Source: Oligoflexia bacterium (GTDB lineage Bacteria > Bdellovibrionota > Bdellovibrionia > JABDDW01). Taken from it: 64,000 nucleotides of DNA. The stretch is taken from assembly GCA_034439615.1 (NCBI GenBank), contig JAWXAT010000009.1:1-64000 (forward strand), given 5' to 3'. Below the pieces are notes generated by a model that saw only the letters and a program-made list of their open reading frames with translations, was not told the origin of the DNA and made no database searches. Below are positions 7,175 through 33,688 of this stretch, in pieces. The position numbers and the translations under genes were made by a program. The stretch's first letter is position 1. Each line of letters starts with the position of its first letter.

Positions 7175-7879
7175 TTAACTCCTAATGCGATAACCAATCC
7201 CACGAATCGTTTCAACCACGTCTGCACAATCTCCCAATTTTTTTCTGAGTCCAAAAATATGGGTGTCCACGGTGCGATCAATAACAGCTACACCCTGACC
7301 TTGAACAAGCTTGATTAAATTTTCACGAGATAAAACACGCCCACGATTTTCTGTGAGGGCTGATAATAATTTAAATTCTGATGGTGTTAGATCTACTTTT
7401 ATAGAGGCACAGGTTACTTCATGGGCATCTACATTAATGGTTAAGTTGCCGATGTGTTGTTTGTTTGTCTTTGGTTCTAAAAGACTCTTTGCCCTTCTTA
7501 ACAAGGCACGCACGCGAGCTAAGAAAATAGAAATTTCAAAAGGTTTGGTGACGTAATCATCAGCGCCCATCTCTAAACCCAAAACCATATCAGCCGCATC
7601 TGCACGGGCTGTGACCATTAAAATCGGTACTTGAGATTTTGCGTCACTGAGTTGACGAACCCGTTTACAAATTTCAAGACCTGAAACACCAGGTAACATC
7701 CAATCTAAGATGATGAGTGCATTGTCATTATTTTGAATGAGTTTAATTGCTGATTCACCATCTTCAGCTTCAATGGTGCGTAAACCTTCACGGTTAAGGT
7801 GTAAAAGCATTAAATCACGAACATCTTTTTCATCTTCTACAACTAAGACTTGAGGATTGTTCAATGACTGATCCATCAT
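7175..7879 (-). CDS. phoB: Phosphate-regulon response regulator PhoB
   Basis: 234 residues. N-terminal receiver with the acidic pair in VVEDEKD, the phospho-acceptor Asp59 in IILDWMLPG and Lys112 in TKPFE. The C-terminal OmpR/PhoB winged helix carries LTPSEFKLLSAL, VIDRTVDTHIFGLRKKLG and ETIRGIGYR. The ATG overlaps the phoU stop by 4 bases, and phoR starts immediately after the stop, so stoichiometric translation with its kinase is likely. It activates Pho-box promoters when phosphorylated; I could not find a convincing Pho box in the window. Confidence 0.93.
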   Translation of the reverse strand: MMDQSLNNPQVLVVEDEKDVRDLMLLHLNREGLRTIEAEDGESAIKLIQNNDNALIILDWMLPGVSGLEICKRVRQLSDAKSQVPILMVTARADAADMVLGLEMGADDYVTKPFEISIFLARVRALLRRAKSLLEPKTNKQHIGNLTINVDAHEVTCASIKVDLTPSEFKLLSALTENRGRVLSRENLIKLVQGQGVAVIDRTVDTHIFGLRKKLGDCADVVETIRGIGYRIRS

Positions 7880-26219: not shown

Positions 26220-26795
26220 TTATTTTTTTACAACGCAGTGTTTTTCTTTTACTGAGCAAGGTCGTCCATGGATATAGTCATTGAGCGCTTGTACTTGAGG
26301 CTTAAGTTGTCGGTGCAAAAACATCCATTTTCCAAGATCATACATAACATCGGTGGCCTCTTTAACACTTAGGCCCTGATATTTCATTTGGTAATATGCA
26401 GCTAGTCGACCTGTGCGGTGGCATCCACAACTGCAACGAAAGGCAATCTTTTTGCCTTGGGCTTGTGCATCTTTTACCCAATTATCAAAGTCGCGCAAAA
26501 AACTCTCACTCATCGGAATTTTAGCTGATTGGCTTTCATTGTAGACAACCTTGAGTGTTGGGCAAGCACCTTGATGTTTAAATTCATATTTTTCTGCTGT
26601 TCCAGAAAGAACTGTCATTTCTTGAATTCCAAGTTTACAAAATTCTTTCATGTCTTTTTCGCTAGGTCGACTGGTTCGATATATTGCAAAGCCAGTTGTT
26701 GGATTTGAATCTATTAAATGTAAATTGTTAGCATTCGCTGTTGAGTTTAATCCTAATGCAATAAAACAAAAAGCAATCCACTTAGAATGAATCAT
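26220..26795 (-). CDS. Exported cysteine-dependent (CX5R) protein phosphatase-like protein
   Basis: 191 residues with a signal peptide (1-22, ending ANA). The P-loop reads AFRCSCGCHRTGRLAAYY: Cys121, five residues, Arg127, as in tyrosine/dual-specificity phosphatases, with the usual small residues replaced by extra cysteines. The preceding FAIYRTSRPSEKDMKEF matches the region before the P-loop in DSP-like phosphatases. It could act on phosphoproteins or phosphoinositides outside the cytoplasm, possibly in host contact (inference). Confidence 0.72.
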   Translation of the reverse strand: MIHSKWIAFCFIALGLNSTANANNLHLIDSNPTTGFAIYRTSRPSEKDMKEFCKLGIQEMTVLSGTAEKYEFKHQGACPTLKVVYNESQSAKIPMSESFLRDFDNWVKDAQAQGKKIAFRCSCGCHRTGRLAAYYQMKYQGLSVKEATDVMYDLGKWMFLHRQLKPQVQALNDYIHGRPCSVKEKHCVVKK

Positions 26796-27041: not shown

Positions 27042-28163
27042 TCACGGGTAGAAATTCATCATGAGCCAGGCTACATCGATGTACTGAGAGAACTGCGAAA
27101 CTCTCAACTGCTTTTGCCAATAGAGATTAAATTCGAAATGCGGTCTTGGAAACCACTGTGTGCCTATTCCGTAAGCTCTAGAAACAGTGTTGCTATCATT
27201 AAGATTTAGCTGTGAATATTCTTGAGTCACGTATCCGTGAAAACCTTGTATGAATTCATAGTTGAGGCGTTGGTAATTTACAAAGCCTGGCAAAGTTTCT
27301 GGTAAACTTTTTGATTTATAACTTTGATAATCAAATTCTGAGAGCAAGAAAAACTTTTGCGTAAAACCCAAAATAAAAAACGGACCCGCTACATGCCTAG
27401 ATGCAGTGTTGTTTTCGCCGTAAAAATAACTAACCCCTGCTTTATACCGCTCCATAAAGAAATAGCTAACTGAACTGCTCAAGCCCTTTTCACGATTTAA
27501 ACGAGTTGCATCGGGGCGACCGAAAAGACCTGTAAGATAGGCATTAAGGTTCTCACCTAAGTATGAAGCTTCAAGATTGTAAGTCTCAGTTCCTTGATTA
27601 AATCCAAGACCTGAATCATTGCCCTTAGTAACAGCATTGTGTTCAGGCATATTGATGCCAAAGTTATGGAGAAACTTGCCTGCTCGCAAGTGAACTTCTT
27701 CAGTGGGCTTATAAATTAAAAAATGTCGCCGGCTAAAGAATTCGCCTTTTTGAGGTGGTGTATGAATACTTCTCTGAACGCCGCCTGAAACAACTCCCGC
27801 CCATTTTTCAGATGTGGCAGCCATTTCAAGGTCAGTTTGCATCGGAAAAAATGCAGCTTCTCTGAGTGTTGGGGTATCTCGATAAATTTGAAGGAATCTT
27901 AAATCACCTCCGCCATGTATCCATGTTGGAAACTTAATTGCTCCATAGGCGAATGCGCCTTCACCCTCGCGACCCCAAGTTGAAAGAACCTCTTTAGTGA
28001 GTTCGCGACCGTAAGGTGTAAGCACCCCGCCGCCTGACGGACTTACGTGACAGGAAATACAGTTAACGTAGCCGTGTCTTACCATTTCTGGAAAGCCAAC
28101 AGCTTCGTTTGGTCGAAGAAAAATACACACTGTTAAAAAAAATATTATTTTCATCATTACCAT
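27042..28163 (-). CDS. Exported protein with N-terminal c-heme motif and predicted beta-barrel
   Basis: 373 residues with a signal peptide (about 1-22). Directly after it comes CISCH (Cys35, Cys38, His39), a c-type heme attachment motif, with SPSGGGVLTPYGR. From about residue 70 the chain alternates polar and aromatic residues in short strands (LRFLQIYRDT, YKAGVSYFYGEN, FEFNLYWQKQL) and ends NFYP, consistent with an outer-membrane barrel. No catalytic family recognised. Last gene of a four-gene exported operon with cytochrome and cupredoxin-like partners, so an electron- or metal-related outer-membrane role is plausible. Confidence 0.62.
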   Translation of the reverse strand: MVMMKIIFFLTVCIFLRPNEAVGFPEMVRHGYVNCISCHVSPSGGGVLTPYGRELTKEVLSTWGREGEGAFAYGAIKFPTWIHGGGDLRFLQIYRDTPTLREAAFFPMQTDLEMAATSEKWAGVVSGGVQRSIHTPPQKGEFFSRRHFLIYKPTEEVHLRAGKFLHNFGINMPEHNAVTKGNDSGLGFNQGTETYNLEASYLGENLNAYLTGLFGRPDATRLNREKGLSSSVSYFFMERYKAGVSYFYGENNTASRHVAGPFFILGFTQKFFLLSEFDYQSYKSKSLPETLPGFVNYQRLNYEFIQGFHGYVTQEYSQLNLNDSNTVSRAYGIGTQWFPRPHFEFNLYWQKQLRVSQFSQYIDVAWLMMNFYP

Positions 28164-28184
28164 CTACCAGTGATAGAGCCCGCA

Positions 28185-28457
28185 TTAATTGACTCTATCG
28201 CACATGACATTTGTTCCCATCATGTGACAGCTGTAGCCAATCACTTTGCTATTAGTTAAATAAATCTTAACCTGTACTTTTGCTCCTTCAGGCCAACCTT
28301 TGACTCCTGTGTAATTCACAAGTTGGGCAGCGTAATCTTTTTCAAACTTTTCAGTGGCGACTACGATTGATGCAGCCGTCATTGAAGCTTTGTTCCCATG
28401 GGCAAAAGAAATTACAGGCAAAAATAATGCGGTTACTACTAAAAGTTTATTGATCAT
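28185..28457 (-). CDS. Small exported protein with a C-terminal CHMMGTNVMC motif
   Basis: 90 residues. Signal peptide 1-18 (ending SFA), then HGNKASMTAAS. The last residues contain CHMMGTNVMC: two cysteines, a histidine and three methionines in ten positions, a composition suited to soft-metal binding or a disulfide. No family recognised. It lies 21-24 bases from both neighbours in the operon. Confidence 0.6.
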   Translation of the reverse strand: MINKLLVVTALFLPVISFAHGNKASMTAASIVVATEKFEKDYAAQLVNYTGVKGWPEGAKVQVKIYLTNSKVIGYSCHMMGTNVMCDRVN

Positions 28458-28481
28458 ATAGATCTCCTATCCTTTGGTTAA

Positions 28482-28997
28482 TTAATTCCCAGGTGTAGAG
28501 CAAGGTGAATCACCTGGCTCACCACTTGGGCGCTCGGGGTCACAAGGTTCATTATCGTCAGGTGGCTCAGTAGGTGCTGGTGTTGGCGAAACTTGGGGTT
28601 GATCTTCAAATTCTTTTGCACCGTTTTTAATCCAACCGTAAAGAGCTTTTAATTCCATTTCTTGAAGTGGTGCAGCACCCTTTGGCATGCGGCCAGAAGC
28701 TGCAGCCGTATAGAGGCTACTGCTTTCAGGATTTCCAGGAATCACAAGGGGAGGGAAGACGGCATTATTCATGATTTTATCATATGAAGAAACATCAATA
28801 CCATGAGGAGCCGAAGCCCCAGAATGACAACTCATGCATTTAGATTGAATAATATGTTTTTGAACTGACGCGAATGTCGGCTGGAGTCCACCCTGAGACT
28901 TGATTTGTTCAGGAACATGGTTTTTATATTCTTTGAAAGTACAACTCGCAGCAAAAGTAGCGCTGACTAAGATTATACAAAATAAAATATTTCTCAA
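28482..28997 (-). CDS. c-type cytochrome lipoprotein
   Basis: 171 residues. The signal ends in lipobox FAASC (Cys19), so it is probably lipid-anchored. A single heme site CMSCHSG lies at 54-60 and the later GRMPKGAAPL offers Met as the distal ligand; the order and length fit the class I-like cytochrome c domain common in Planctomycetes and Bdellovibrionota lipoproteins. The C-terminal 35 residues are Pro/Glu/Asp-rich. Third gene of the tight exported operon. Confidence 0.78.
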   Translation of the reverse strand: MRNILFCIILVSATFAASCTFKEYKNHVPEQIKSQGGLQPTFASVQKHIIQSKCMSCHSGASAPHGIDVSSYDKIMNNAVFPPLVIPGNPESSSLYTAAASGRMPKGAAPLQEMELKALYGWIKNGAKEFEDQPQVSPTPAPTEPPDDNEPCDPERPSGEPGDSPCSTPGN

Positions 28998-29014
28998 ACC
29001 TACCTCCGACGCGA

Positions 29015-30265
29015 TTACATGACCATGAAACTACCTTGAGTTTGTTGGGGAGCTCCATGTATTCCACAACTAAAGGGAAAGGTTCCAGTTTTTAGCGGTG
29101 TGATTTTTTGTTTTACAGGTGCGCTGCCCATCGTCATTAACTCAATACCCAGATCAGGTGCGGTGAGCATAAACATTTTATCTGCGCGGCCAGACAATAC
29201 AATCTCTACTGTTTTGTCTTTGTATATATGAACCATAGTGGGGGAGCATGTTCCATCAGCATTTCCTGTGATTGTTTCAACAGCTGCGACTGGAGTGAGA
29301 AGTTCTAAGAGTTCAGCGTATCCCTTTTTTTCGGCCATTGTATAAGCCGTGAGCCCCTGATTATTTTTTAAATCTAATTGCGGGTTCATTCGGAGAATTG
29401 TTCTTACCATGAGCTCATTACGAGATTGAGCTGCATAAATGAGAGCGGTGTTTCCGTCTTTGCCTTGGGCATTGATATTTGGCTTTGCATCTCGAAGTGC
29501 ATTTACCTCAGTAACACTATTAGAATAGACGAAGTTAAGTAATGGTGTTCGTTTTGAAATAGGATCTCTATCTTCAAGATTTGCACCTTCTTCGATAAGA
29601 AGCTTGATGATATCTGTTAGAAAAAGTGAACCGCGAGGTCCGCTGAATTGATTTCCACAGCCCGTATCACTCACGCGTAAAAAGGCTGAACAACCAAATT
29701 TATCTTTGTAATTTACATCTGCGCCACACCGCAGAAGTCGCTCGATATCTTTTGGAGTGCCTTGAATTGTTGCGGCTGACCAGTCGGTGTAAAGAGCTTC
29801 CGGTTTTGGACAAGGAGCTACTTTGGGAAAAAATTCTCCGTCAAATGAACAGGTCATGTTTTCATAGCGACGCTCTAAACCATAACCTTGAGGTCTATTA
29901 GGAGGTTGTTGATATAGAATTAAATTACCCATGAATTCTTGTGGATTCTCAATCTTACTAGGAATAGTGAGTTGCAAGAGTATACCAATTGTTTGGTCTC
30001 TATAGAGAGTATAGTCGGCCTTACGAACACGTTCAACCATGTACTCGTCTTTGAGTTTATCAGATGGATCTTCACTATTATTTTCTACATTGGCATAGAG
30101 ATATGCGCGTCCACCAGAGAAAGGTGGGAATTTTGGTTTAATCGTCAGAGTAGTTGTAATCTCTGGGACATCGCCAGTAATAACCGTACATTTTATTTCT
30201 TCTGCAGAAGAAATTTGCGTAATCGCAAAAGAACTTAACAAAATAATTTTCAGCATTCTCATCAA
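29015..30265 (-). CDS. Exported ankyrin-repeat protein with C-terminal cupredoxin-like domain
   Basis: 416 residues with a signal peptide (1-20). Residues about 170-325 contain ankyrin repeats (GTPKDIERLLRCGADVNYKD, GNTALIYAAQSRNELMVRTI, GLTAYTMAEKKGYAELLELL). The last 80 residues look like a cupredoxin: a beta-rich segment ending FPFSCGIHGAPQQTQGSFMVM, where the CGIH element resembles the Cys-x2-His copper loop. An exported ankyrin-cupredoxin fusion is unusual. First gene of the four-gene operon. Copper binding is inferred. Confidence 0.68.
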   Translation of the reverse strand: MMRMLKIILLSSFAITQISSAEEIKCTVITGDVPEITTTLTIKPKFPPFSGGRAYLYANVENNSEDPSDKLKDEYMVERVRKADYTLYRDQTIGILLQLTIPSKIENPQEFMGNLILYQQPPNRPQGYGLERRYENMTCSFDGEFFPKVAPCPKPEALYTDWSAATIQGTPKDIERLLRCGADVNYKDKFGCSAFLRVSDTGCGNQFSGPRGSLFLTDIIKLLIEEGANLEDRDPISKRTPLLNFVYSNSVTEVNALRDAKPNINAQGKDGNTALIYAAQSRNELMVRTILRMNPQLDLKNNQGLTAYTMAEKKGYAELLELLTPVAAVETITGNADGTCSPTMVHIYKDKTVEIVLSGRADKMFMLTAPDLGIELMTMGSAPVKQKITPLKTGTFPFSCGIHGAPQQTQGSFMVM

Positions 30266-31053: not shown

Positions 31054-31416
31054 TTAACTCAGAAGTTGAGGCAAAAACGCAAAGCCAGCACCGATCAAGT
31101 ATAAAACAAGTGAGAAAAAATAAATCCAAACGGACCAATCACGAGTGGTAGCACAGGCTTCGCCAAGTTTTGGATCAATGGGACATGCTTGTTTGCGAGC
31201 TCTCCATTGCATGTACCCAGCTACTGAAAGCATCACAGCACCAAATATAAAAAAATATATTTTGTGCTCAGAGATCCAAATTAGCTGCGGAAAAATTCCA
31301 ATGAGGCCAGCAAAAGCTGCACCTGCGCCGAGCACTACAAAAAGTGCTGGGAGCGCACAGCACACAAGCGTGCTGATAGAGGTAAAAAGACTCAAAAATG
31401 AACTTATTCGTTTCAT
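31054..31416 (-). CDS. MerT-like metal transport membrane protein
   Basis: 120 residues with three membrane segments. The first carries the paired cysteines Cys19-Cys20 in LVCCALPALFVVLGAGAAF, and the cytoplasmic loop has QACPIDPKLGEAC (Cys78, Cys88); both placements match MerT. MerT passes mercuric ions from MerP to the cytoplasm, but no merA, merB or merR lies nearby, so the metal may differ. Partner MerP-like gene is 3 bases upstream. Confidence 0.75.
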   Translation of the reverse strand: MKRISSFLSLFTSISTLVCCALPALFVVLGAGAAFAGLIGIFPQLIWISEHKIYFFIFGAVMLSVAGYMQWRARKQACPIDPKLGEACATTRDWSVWIYFFSLVLYLIGAGFAFLPQLLS

Positions 31417-31419
31417 CTC

Positions 31420-31713
31420 TCACTTTCTCTCTATTTTCTCAACGGTGTAACCGGCGTCTTTTAATGTTTGAGTGATCTTCTCATTACTCAATTCTTCGCC
31501 TTCTTTAAATTTCAAAGTGACCGCTTTTTCTTCAAGCTTCACATCAACAGTGGCAACCTCGCGTTCGGCTTTGAATTTCTTTGTAATTCCTTGAGCGCAA
31601 AAACCGCAAACCATACCATTCACTTCAATTTTAGCTTCTGTTGCTATTTTGCCTTCAGCAAATGATACTTGAGCATTCAAAATTAGAGTGGTTATAAGAA
31701 TAAAAAATTTCAT
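31420..31713 (-). CDS. MerP-like periplasmic heavy-metal-associated protein
   Basis: 97 residues. Signal peptide 1-19, then one heavy-metal-associated domain: KIEVNGMVCGFCAQGITKKF gives the metal-binding Cys36-x2-Cys39 pair and a ferredoxin-like fold. It would bind a thiophilic metal in the periplasm and hand it to the MerT-like protein encoded directly downstream. The pairing suggests uptake or routing rather than detoxification by reduction. Confidence 0.82.
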   Translation of the reverse strand: MKFFILITTLILNAQVSFAEGKIATEAKIEVNGMVCGFCAQGITKKFKAEREVATVDVKLEEKAVTLKFKEGEELSNEKITQTLKDAGYTVEKIERK

Positions 31714-31728
31714 AAAATATTCCTTTCC

Positions 31729-32355
31729 TTAAAAGTGAAACATGAAGTTCAACATCCAATCACCCTTAGTGCTCACGCCTGTCTCCCAAAGAACGCTTTT
31801 ATAAAACATTCTGTAAAGGGGAGTGATTACAAATTTTTGCGTGAGCCCTGGATGATATTGGGCTTGAACCATAAACCAACTAGCAATTTCATTAAATTCT
31901 GCCTCGTAAGGTGCCACACCTAAACGAAACTCAGCCTTATGAAATGGATCGGCAAGATTTGAATACATAGATTCCCATCTTCCCAATACGAACCACTTTC
32001 GGCTTTCAGCATCCGCTTCAATGCCCACAAGGCCAGCGTTACCATTTATCTCTTTGAATCTTGCGCCGCCGTACCCAGCATAAGCATAAATATTTGCTTG
32101 CGACTCAGGGTTATTCCAACGCTTCACTAGGTAATTGATCTGTGGAAAATAGGCTGCAAACTCTCCTTCAGGCATTTGCATTCGTGTAGCACGAGCTGCA
32201 ATTGCAGCATCACTTGCAAAACTGTAATTCACCCAAGAATCACTCAAAAATGATTGATTCCATGTCATAACAGCAAGCGCATATTTGTAAGATGTCGGAT
32301 GAGCGAATGATGCAGATGAAATCAAAAATGAAATTATAAATAAAAGTTTAACCAT
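31729..32355 (-). CDS. Predicted outer-membrane beta-barrel protein
   Basis: 208 residues with a signal peptide (1-18, ending SFA). Short amphipathic strands follow (YKYALAVMTWNQSF, ANIYAYAGYGG, FMVQAQYHP, KFVITPLYRMFY) and the chain ends WMLNFMFHF, a classic outer-membrane C-terminal Phe signature. Its start overlaps the membrane protein gene by 8 bases. As a member of the sigma-factor operon it may form the outer-membrane step of the metal route. Family not recognised. Confidence 0.65.
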   Translation of the reverse strand: MVKLLFIISFLISSASFAHPTSYKYALAVMTWNQSFLSDSWVNYSFASDAAIAARATRMQMPEGEFAAYFPQINYLVKRWNNPESQANIYAYAGYGGARFKEINGNAGLVGIEADAESRKWFVLGRWESMYSNLADPFHKAEFRLGVAPYEAEFNEIASWFMVQAQYHPGLTQKFVITPLYRMFYKSVLWETGVSTKGDWMLNFMFHF

Positions 32356-32893
32356 AGATCACCTTCTGTCTGATCCAGCGGCGAGTCACCCAGCCTAGTT
32401 CAAGTGAAGTAATTCCGCCTAAGATCGAACCCGCCATCCATGCTAAGGTTAATGTTTCAAATACTTCAGCTCCTAAACAGAGAAATGTTCCGACAGTAAG
32501 TAATGTTAGAAGTATTAACTGAAGGGTTTTGTTTTTTCTTAAAACTTGTACTTCTTCTGGGCGCATTGCAATAACCGACGCAAGCAAAGATGATCCGGCA
32601 AAAATAACGCCGCAGCCAAACATACAAACCGTTTCGCCGTACTGCATGAGTACATGCATGATTCCATGAGAACCGGTGAGACTAAAACCGAACTGAGGGC
32701 AAAAAAGTAAAACTGCAAATCCAACAAGGGCCTGAATAAGACTAATTTTAGAAAACACTTTCCAAGCACTCGGGTTCAGATCTTCTCTGACACGTTTAAG
32801 AATGTTTTCGCTAAGGCCTAGTGGTGGTTGCACAGATTCTGCGTCAACAAAGCCTGTGAATTCTTTAATCCAAGTTTTATTGTCATTACTCAT
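32348..32893 (-). CDS. Membrane protein, probable anti-sigma factor
   Basis: 181 residues. A soluble N-terminal stretch of about 45 residues precedes four to five membrane segments; cysteines sit in or beside them (LLFCPQFGF, ETVCMFGCGV, FLCLGAEV). The start overlaps the ECF sigma gene stop by 4 bases, the usual sigma/anti-sigma order, and layout and cysteines recall NrsF-type anti-sigma factors that respond to heavy metals. No sequence match to NrsF is claimed. Confidence 0.6.
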   Translation of the reverse strand: MSNDNKTWIKEFTGFVDAESVQPPLGLSENILKRVREDLNPSAWKVFSKISLIQALVGFAVLLFCPQFGFSLTGSHGIMHVLMQYGETVCMFGCGVIFAGSSLLASVIAMRPEEVQVLRKNKTLQLILLTLLTVGTFLCLGAEVFETLTLAWMAGSILGGITSLELGWVTRRWIRQKVIYG

Positions 32894-33408
32894 TTATTCC
32901 CTCGAATTTTTCTAACAGCTCGACTGATTATTTGGCGCACATTTACAGATGAAGTCTTCATTCGATCGGCAATTTCTGGAAAATCAAGACCATCTTGATA
33001 TCTCAGTGCAAGTGCCTTTCTCTGTGGCTCAGAAAGAGTTGAAAGTGCATCAGAAACCGAAAGTGCAGCTTCAGCGCCCGAAGCGCTTGCGAGATTATCT
33101 AAGTGAACTTCATTCATTTCGACTTCTGGCTTTTTTAATCTCAAATAATCAATCAATGTGGTTTTACAAATCGTAAATAGCCACGGAGCAAACAAAAACT
33201 GCGGCGTGTATAAATGTCTAGACTTATGAAGTTTCAAAAAAGCAGATTGAAATACCTCGTCACGGTCAGTCCTATTAAAGAGCCTCGAAGAAAGATAAGA
33301 ATAAATCTTTCCTGAATAACGTTCATATAATTCATTAAATGCAGCCGCTTCCCCGGCTTGGTAGGCTTCCATAAGCTCCTCATCAGTTTTGTTATGGCCA
33401 GTTATCAT
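32890..33408 (-). CDS. ECF-type RNA polymerase sigma factor
   Basis: 172 residues with both sigma-70 regions. Region 2: AFNELYERYSGKIYSYLSSR, DRDEVFQSAFLKLH and PWLFTICKTTLIDYLR. Region 4: LSEPQRKALALRYQDGLDFP then RMKTSSVNVRQIISRAVRKI. It would direct transcription of its own operon and perhaps distant genes once the membrane partner releases it. First gene of the five-gene unit; its own promoter could not be assigned. Confidence 0.9.
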   Translation of the reverse strand: MITGHNKTDEELMEAYQAGEAAAFNELYERYSGKIYSYLSSRLFNRTDRDEVFQSAFLKLHKSRHLYTPQFLFAPWLFTICKTTLIDYLRLKKPEVEMNEVHLDNLASASGAEAALSVSDALSTLSEPQRKALALRYQDGLDFPEIADRMKTSSVNVRQIISRAVRKIRGNK

Positions 33409-33688
33409 TGAGTTTCAGTGCCTTTCACTGGGTATTACGGTGAGAATCATGATTTGTGACAAATAAATTTCATCACTCATTAAATTGCTAATTTTGCTTA
33501 TATTTCAAGGGTCATTTGCATTCTAAATTTCAATTTGTGAGTTTTTTGGTATGCCCCATGCTCTAAGTGTAGGTGTTTAGCTAGAGCCGCTGAAAGTTCT
33601 CTGGATGAAATGTCCAGTACATAGCGTTTAAAGTTGCAACAAAACTTTTGCTTAAACCAACTGGGCGTTGGTATTAAGGACCTCTGAT

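Follow-up and report, generated by a model that had tools for sequence, protein, structure and literature searches.

Proteins in which a cytochrome is fused to a porin are known as iron oxidisers. The published definition of Cyc2 includes the motif AxPxFAR[QK][TY] upstream of the heme motif CxxCH and PxL after it, and porins of the OprO/OprP type are also the porin family named for this protein (PMC8406198). In the rus operon of Acidithiobacillus, cyc2-cyc1-cup-cox-rus, Cyc2 is accompanied by a c cytochrome and by cupredoxins (PMC10654088), and in the LcoA-BcnA system a membrane heme protein has as its partner a YceI lipocalin, a type of protein that carries ubiquinone-8 or similar isoprenoids (PMC9113575). 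The present study concerns a four-gene operon within a stretch of 64,000 nucleotides (nt) from an Oligoflexia bacterium of the phylum Bdellovibrionota (assembly GCA_034439615.1, contig JAWXAT010000009.1, positions 1 to 64,000), hereafter referred to as the window. The operon encodes an ankyrin-cupredoxin protein (AnkCup), a c-type cytochrome lipoprotein, a mini-protein of 90 amino acids (aa), and a cytochrome-porin (heme-porin). On the basis of its gene structure, heme motifs, barrel prediction, heme-domain homology, gene-set conservation, and copper-gene context, we consider the chances to be about even that the cluster represents a copper-associated outer-membrane redox module, which would relieve copper stress by taking up electrons from Cu(I).

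All four genes are oriented in one direction on the minus strand (Table 1), are separated, in operon order, by gaps of only 17, 24, and 21 nt, and encode proteins of 416, 171, 90, and 373 aa, for each of which an export signal was predicted. Purine-rich stretches resembling ribosome-binding sites were found 5' of the starts of the first three genes; the open reading frame (ORF) of AnkCup begins with TTG, and an ATG follows one codon downstream. The arrangement of four exported, co-directional genes with short gaps, as described in a first-pass annotation made from the sequence without database searches, was therefore borne out. Moreover, the cluster was confirmed to be real, co-directional, and beyond chance, since the heme-porin and its partners recur jointly in many genomes.

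The heme-porin was detected in 45 out of 60 relatives and in 197 out of 291 genomes of the phylum, its usual partners being a YceI lipocalin (PF04264) and a c-type cytochrome lipoprotein. Of the 49 heme-porin copies, 36 have a YceI gene no more than 3 kb away (about 0.5 expected), and this excess applies to the close (20 of 25; 0.24 expected) as well as to the divergent porins (16 of 24; 0.26 expected). ORFs in the relatives were called mechanically, and, as contig ends hide some neighbours, the proximity counts are minimum values; the expectations assume independent genomes of about 3.4-3.5 Mb, and, the genomes being related, P values overstate the certainty, while the size of the excess is unaffected by this assumption. 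Of the conserved gene order for which the first-pass annotation had called, only the gene set was recovered elsewhere; the exact order was seen solely in the window among the genomes sampled. Likewise, the four genes as such do not constitute the conserved unit, which elsewhere additionally comprises YceI, a protein of ~195 aa, and, in most cases, CsoR; the 90-aa gene is part of a distinct pair of cytochrome lipoprotein and mini-protein. In the window, the 90-aa gene occupies the position of YceI in the conserved order, and no YceI gene was found near the heme-porin. The operon is a variant without YceI and CsoR. The only YceI gene of the window genome adjoins a second heme-porin on another contig (L033, G000:C25:42944-44030; L numbers are our handles for loci), whose reading frame is broken by a frameshift past the heme domain, through either real decay or an assembly error.

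Neither the heme-porin nor the 90-aa protein matched a Pfam or NCBIfam family above the cut-off. The single CxxCH of the heme-porin, CISCH at residues 35-39, is located just past the signal peptide within PEMVRHGYVNCISCH...LTPYGR. Alignment A1, comprising 23 heme-porin homologs, served as input to the AlphaFold (AF2) model and to the profile searches. The model (mean predicted local distance difference test score, pLDDT, 78.8) features a 16-stranded barrel, for which Foldseek recovered the solved 16-stranded porins OmpU, OmpT, chitoporin VhChiP, and OprP, with E-values down to 5.7e-10; by means of the sequence profile alone, hmmsearch detected OprO at 7.1e-4. The barrel expected in the first-pass annotation was accordingly recovered in the model, and the heme, whose motif segment (residues 35-45) is modelled with low confidence, may lie in its lumen. 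Neither a search of the genome contigs with the barrel alone nor tblastn against plasmids yielded a match.

For comparison with Cyc2, 80 loci encoding the Cyc2 motif were fetched, including those of Acidithiobacillus, Zetaproteobacteria, Gallionellaceae, and Chlorobium, and 30 Cyc2 proteins were aligned (A2). Alignment of A1 with A2 by hhalign (95%, E 2.9e-8) extended over 37 columns and covered the heme domain only; once the signal peptide had been removed, the alignment scored 40.5, whereas 60 column-shuffled controls preserving CxxCH averaged 25.5 and peaked at 34.6. The register pattern P...R.....CxxCH...LTxYGR-like was shared by 28 barrels, while the remaining CxxCH proteins at the same loci were all without it. 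In a weaker control, the alignment of the heme domain with the cytochrome lipoprotein was limited to 13 columns around CxxCH. Of the Cyc2 criteria, the heme-porin features the single N-terminal CxxCH after a signal peptide and, with 373 aa and 16 strands in the AF2 model, the length of at least 365 aa and the 16-stranded porin. In the place of AxPxFAR[Q/K][T/Y], the window encodes VGFPEMVRHG, in which P and R are kept and F, A, Q/K, and T/Y are replaced by M, V, H, and G, respectively; PxL, expected four residues past CxxCH, is absent from CISCHVSPSGGGVLTPYGR, where an insert parts P from L. Furthermore, the barrel halves could not be aligned (hhalign probability 7.7%), and, at E<=1e-3, the Cyc2 genes of 20 genomes encoding this protein were all missed by the A1 profile. 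The one match obtained there, a gammaproteobacterial cytochrome-porin-like protein of 363 aa (L271:1411-2502), looks intermediate between Cyc2 and the heme-porin family. As both motifs fail, the heme-porin was rejected as a true Cyc2 by the published definition, and it is best called a distant Cyc2 relative that appears to have the heme domain and the architecture in common with it. Since the heme domains are homologous, the outer-membrane electron conduit considered in the first-pass annotation is plausible. Within the flanks of the 80 Cyc2 loci, no YceI and one weak cytochrome-lipoprotein match were found. Genes resembling Cu-type P-ATPases flank three of these loci (L069, L070, and L076), and Cyc2 itself may sometimes reside within metal-resistance islands.

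The linkage of the module to copper genes is strongly supported, and the copper-handling function proposed alternatively in the first-pass annotation gained good support from CsoR, copper multicopper oxidase (MCO), Cu-ATPase, and CusA/CzcA-type resistance-nodulation-division (RND) genes in relatives. At L034 and L036, loci of two close relatives, the porin, YceI, the 90-aa gene, and the cytochrome lipoprotein are accompanied by CsoR and a copper MCO. Loci L257 and L260 feature the order CsoR - (c79) - diheme lipoprotein - AnkCup - YceI - heme-porin - Cu-ATPase; the same series occurs in L261 with an MCO beyond the porin at the end, its genes are found in slightly altered order in L255, L256, and L262, and L258 and L259 are without AnkCup. 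The ~195-aa protein is encoded between CsoR and the diheme lipoprotein in this copper-linked version, which occurs in two classes with copper oxidases and RND pumps nearby, an MCO or a Cu-ATPase being located in or adjoining most of the loci L255-L262. These neighbours were identified as copper_res_A MCO (4.8e-124) and Cu-translocating P-type ATPase (9e-183); for the regulator, the copper-sensing RicR was the top CsoR/RcnR/FrmR model, below its cut-off. In total, nine heme-porins were found within 10 kb of CsoR, compared with ~0.7 expected as summed by hand (P about 5e-8). In the heme-porin tree, 12 out of 15 copper-linked rows, including the window, are placed in one supported clade of 22 (100/96), as marked by a loose rule (any copper-type gene within 8 kb), under which L043, outside the clade, is doubtful. 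Because the tree forces at least four changes of the copper state, the copper association was gained or lost more than once, and the occurrence of one operon in two classes suggests transfer of the copper-linked operon between lineages. Near the heme-porin operon of G006, a fusion of an FTR1 iron permease with a cytochrome c domain is encoded (L036:1661-3559, minus strand).

The full-length AnkCup profile retrieved ten genes in 8 of the 291 phylum genomes. Homologs in the seven other sampled genomes all adjoin CsoR; eight of the ten genes adjoin the heme-porin, and nine, all but that of the window, are located no farther than about 6 kb from CsoR. The cytochrome lipoprotein of the operon was assigned to the Pfam family PSCyt1 (cytochrome c) above the cut-off and to NCBIfam LIC11213_lipo (7.9e-15) below it, and its CxxCH and MP residues are invariant in alignment A4. 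Judged by title, the papers listed on LIC11213 are vaccine or localisation screens. The mini-protein family, found in 28 of the 291 phylum genomes, neighbours a monoheme cytochrome lipoprotein at almost every locus inspected, and 8 and 10 of 21 copies were detected within 10 kb of CsoR (0.14 expected) and MCO (0.18 expected), respectively. Its confident model (pLDDT 88) consists of a helix and four strands, for which no PDB fold match below E 0.3 was obtained. The predicted mature N-terminus of the window subgroup is His-Gly, which is reminiscent of a histidine-brace copper site. In the open-access literature searched, no earlier description was found for either the AnkCup or the 90-aa C/H/M family, both of which occur in a strong copper-gene context. 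In one genus, a longer, tandem-duplicated, His-rich version of the mini-protein with CHxH motifs (L245, L246, and L247, near position 7300) adjoins a ZnuABC-like zinc-type ATP-binding cassette transporter, as named by eye, and the metal of the family may therefore vary. The window genome additionally encodes a second pair of cytochrome lipoprotein and 90-aa protein at a contig end (L199, G000:C27:454-1301).

Upstream of the four-gene operon, five further genes form an operon headed by an extracytoplasmic function (ECF) sigma factor (Table 1). This operon likely belongs to the heme-porin system, as all five genes have homologs heading the heme-porin operon in L270; relatives of the HMA/MerT-like pair were found in L198, a copper locus comprising MCO, CsoR, and mini-protein genes. 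The anti-sigma-like proteins of the window (32348-32893) and of L270 (3332-3874 and 1564-2091), all on the minus strand, feature a common CPQFG..H...H..C..CG (C-x2/3-CG) membrane pattern and possibly represent a metal-sensing anti-sigma family. Upstream of the ECF genes, TGTCACAAAT...CGTAA/CGTTA is common to the window (33435-33461, minus strand) and L270 (4377-4461). The TGTCACAAAT pattern occurs once in the window (0.1 expected), before the sigma gene only, and is a candidate for an autoregulated ECF promoter; no promoter shared by both window operons was found. Downstream of the four-gene operon (26220-26795, minus strand), an exported protein with the motif CGCHRTGR, resembling the active-site loop of tyrosine phosphatases, is encoded.

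Table 1. Features of the four-gene operon and of the operon upstream of it (window positions).
Feature	Position	Strand	Evidence
Heme-porin: signal peptide, monoheme cytochrome domain, predicted 16-stranded outer-membrane barrel	27042..28163	-	AF2, Foldseek, hmmsearch, hhalign
CISCH heme c motif of heme-porin	28047..28061	-	CxxCH invariant in 23 homologs; Cyc2-register motif
90-aa periplasmic mini-protein, C/H/M-rich tail with two invariant Cys	28185..28457	-	Alignment A6; model
CHMMGTNVMC, candidate metal site of 90-aa protein	28200..28229	-	C77, C86 invariant in 18 homologs; His/Met around
Monoheme c-type cytochrome lipoprotein, LIC11213-like	28482..28997	-	PSCyt1 1.7e-5; lipobox-like FAAS/C (cleavage before C)
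CMSCH heme c motif of lipoprotein, single CxxCH	28824..28838	-	Sequence; alignment A4
AnkCup: exported ankyrin-repeat protein with C-terminal cupredoxin	29015..30265	-	Pfam Ank_2 8.7e-16, Cupredoxin_1 2.1e-6
Cupredoxin domain of AnkCup, residues 336-406	29048..29260	-	Pfam; alignment A5
MerT-like small membrane protein, probable part of system	31054..31416	-	50% to L198 gene; 44% to L270 gene
Exported HMA (CopZ/MerP-like) metal-binding protein	31420..31713	-	Pfam HMA 7e-9; 49% to L198, 39% to L270
208-aa exported protein, probable outer-membrane protein	31729..32355	-	36% to L270:4462-5118
Probable membrane anti-sigma factor, conserved Cys/His in membrane part	32348..32893	-	30-32% to two L270 proteins
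ECF sigma factor heading upstream operon	32890..33408	-	Sigma70_r4_2 2.1e-12; TIGR02937 2.1e-26; 30-32% to L270 ECF factors

In the proposed module, the centre would be the fused monoheme cytochrome-porin, its heme domain sharing ancestry with that of Cyc2, served by the c-type cytochrome lipoprotein, the cupredoxin, and small Cys/His/Met metal-binding proteins. Cu(I) would be captured by the mini-protein, the HMA protein, or the cupredoxin, and its electron taken at the periplasmic face or within the outer-membrane pore, passed to heme c, and led out via the cytochrome lipoprotein, in most relatives perhaps with a YceI-carried quinone as a further exit, while the less toxic Cu(II) would stay outside or be exported. 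The module would operate beside an MCO, or in its stead where this enzyme is absent. We infer copper binding, the direction of electron flow, and the protective role; oxidation of Cu(I) to the benefit of a c-type heme is proposed because cupredoxin and cytochromes occur together with copper-detoxification neighbours and because of the Cyc2-cytochrome-cupredoxin parallel in Acidithiobacillus. It appears doubtful to us that the Cyc2-related cytochrome-porin, together with the cupredoxin, the c-type cytochrome, and mostly a quinone-carrying lipocalin, would deliver the Cu(I) electron to the electron-transfer chain of the cell. If true, copper would be detoxified without an MCO and without O2 at the active site, amounting to a copper defence of respiratory type located in the outer membrane.

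Several observations weigh against this interpretation. Cupredoxins with type 1 copper employ the ligands His-Cys-His-Met, a set that AnkCup does not have: in alignment A5 (nine sequences), Cys400 and His403 are invariant, the first His is replaced by Met364 in 9/9, and no axial Met is conserved. With the usual first His missing and no axial Met conserved, a copper site of AnkCup, if any, would be unusual. CsoR was not found in the window genome, no gene in the window neighbourhood was labelled MCO or Cu-ATPase, and the only MCO-type match of the genome is located on another contig, not beside the operon. No candidate ECF promoter was found before the four-gene operon; a gene on the plus strand lies between it and the upstream operon, as does a terminator-like site. 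Finally, most heme-porins of the phylum, including the second copy of the window genome, are encoded away from copper genes, and copper is therefore neither the ancestral nor the sole role of this family.

The latter distribution would be explained by general outer-membrane redox protection, which we rank as the main rival and consider rather unlikely. Heme-porin and cytochrome lipoprotein would then recycle a YceI-bound quinone quenching lipid peroxyl radicals and thereby parallel, at the outer membrane, LcoA-BcnA, a pair of cytochrome b561 and YceI, and copper loci would have recruited the module because Cu(I) drives radical chemistry. The excess of YceI near heme-porins of both subfamilies agrees with this explanation, whereas the window operon, being without YceI, is left unexplained by it, as is the confinement of AnkCup to CsoR-type loci, the window excepted; moreover, no b561 gene was recognised among the Pfam-scanned module neighbours, and LcoA-BcnA is an inner-membrane system.

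Clearly less probable is a metal channel, in which copper or another metal would cross the outer membrane through the barrel, the heme would act as a redox gate or a structural plug, and the small proteins would serve as metal chaperones during uptake or export. The matches to the substrate-specific OprO/OprP and to general porins, the HMA and MerT-like genes upstream, and the P-type ATPase and RND neighbours in relatives are consistent with such a function, but the persistent pairing with a c-type cytochrome, joined by the cupredoxin in copper loci, points to electron transfer and not to transport alone. We regard it as highly improbable that the heme-porin is a true Cyc2 iron oxidase passing Fe(II) electrons to respiration: despite the fused monoheme architecture, the Cyc2-homologous heme domain, and the FTR1-cytochrome c permease near the porin of one relative, the two Cyc2 motifs fail, the barrel halves do not align, the A1 profile recovers no Cyc2 genes in the 20 genomes searched, and the gene context is one of copper and not of iron respiration.

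With a Cyc2-related heme-porin recurring beside copper-resistance genes, these bacteria may counter copper stress by means of a device for electron transfer at the cell surface of a kind not described before. The analysis defines two protein families, the ankyrin-cupredoxin and the 90-aa C/H/M proteins, and a large sister family, found in roughly two thirds of the phylum genomes sampled and linked with YceI and a cytochrome lipoprotein, extends the possible roles of cytochrome-porins. The copper-linked operons raise the testable question of whether outer-membrane electron transfer is part of copper resistance. To our knowledge, the heme-porin, YceI, ankyrin-cupredoxin, and 90-aa families are no standard members of copper-resistance loci. 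Titles and abstracts of the open-access literature on Bdellovibrio copper, Cyc2/copper, ankyrin/cupredoxin, and YceI/CsoR did not describe the gene set, in line with the earlier statement that no described system with this set was known.

Among the described systems, resistance loci with CsoR, CopA MCO, Cu-ATPase, and Cus-Czc RND pumps differ from the window operon, which is without CsoR, MCO, and Cu-ATPase, but they harbour its relatives. The MtrAB/PioAB/MtoAB conduits likewise provide a heme electron path with an outer-membrane barrel; there, a multiheme (decaheme) protein is inserted into a 26-stranded barrel, whereas here one heme is fused to a 16-stranded barrel, and barrel and lipoprotein carry one CxxCH each. 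LcoA-BcnA resembles the relatives of the operon in that a YceI lipocalin adjoins a membrane heme protein (PMC9113575); the heme protein described here is, however, an outer-membrane c-type cytochrome-porin, and YceI is missing from the window operon. As in the rus operon, a cytochrome-porin is encoded together with a c-type cytochrome and a cupredoxin; unlike there, terminal oxidase and rusticyanin genes are absent, the cupredoxin is fused to ankyrin repeats and has an atypical copper site, and the neighbours in relatives are copper-resistance genes. Cyc2 of Mariprofundus and Acidithiobacillus has in common with the heme-porin the signal peptide, one N-terminal CxxCH, and a 16-stranded OprO/OprP-like porin (PMC8406198), as well as P, R, CxxCH, and LTPxGR at equal register and the heme-domain profile homology. 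It differs in the motif residues F, A, Q/K, and T/Y and in PxL, none of which the heme-porin retains, in the SGGG insert that follows the heme motif of the latter, and in the surroundings of the heme-porin, whose partners are YceI, the cytochrome lipoprotein, and the ankyrin-cupredoxin and whose setting includes copper loci.

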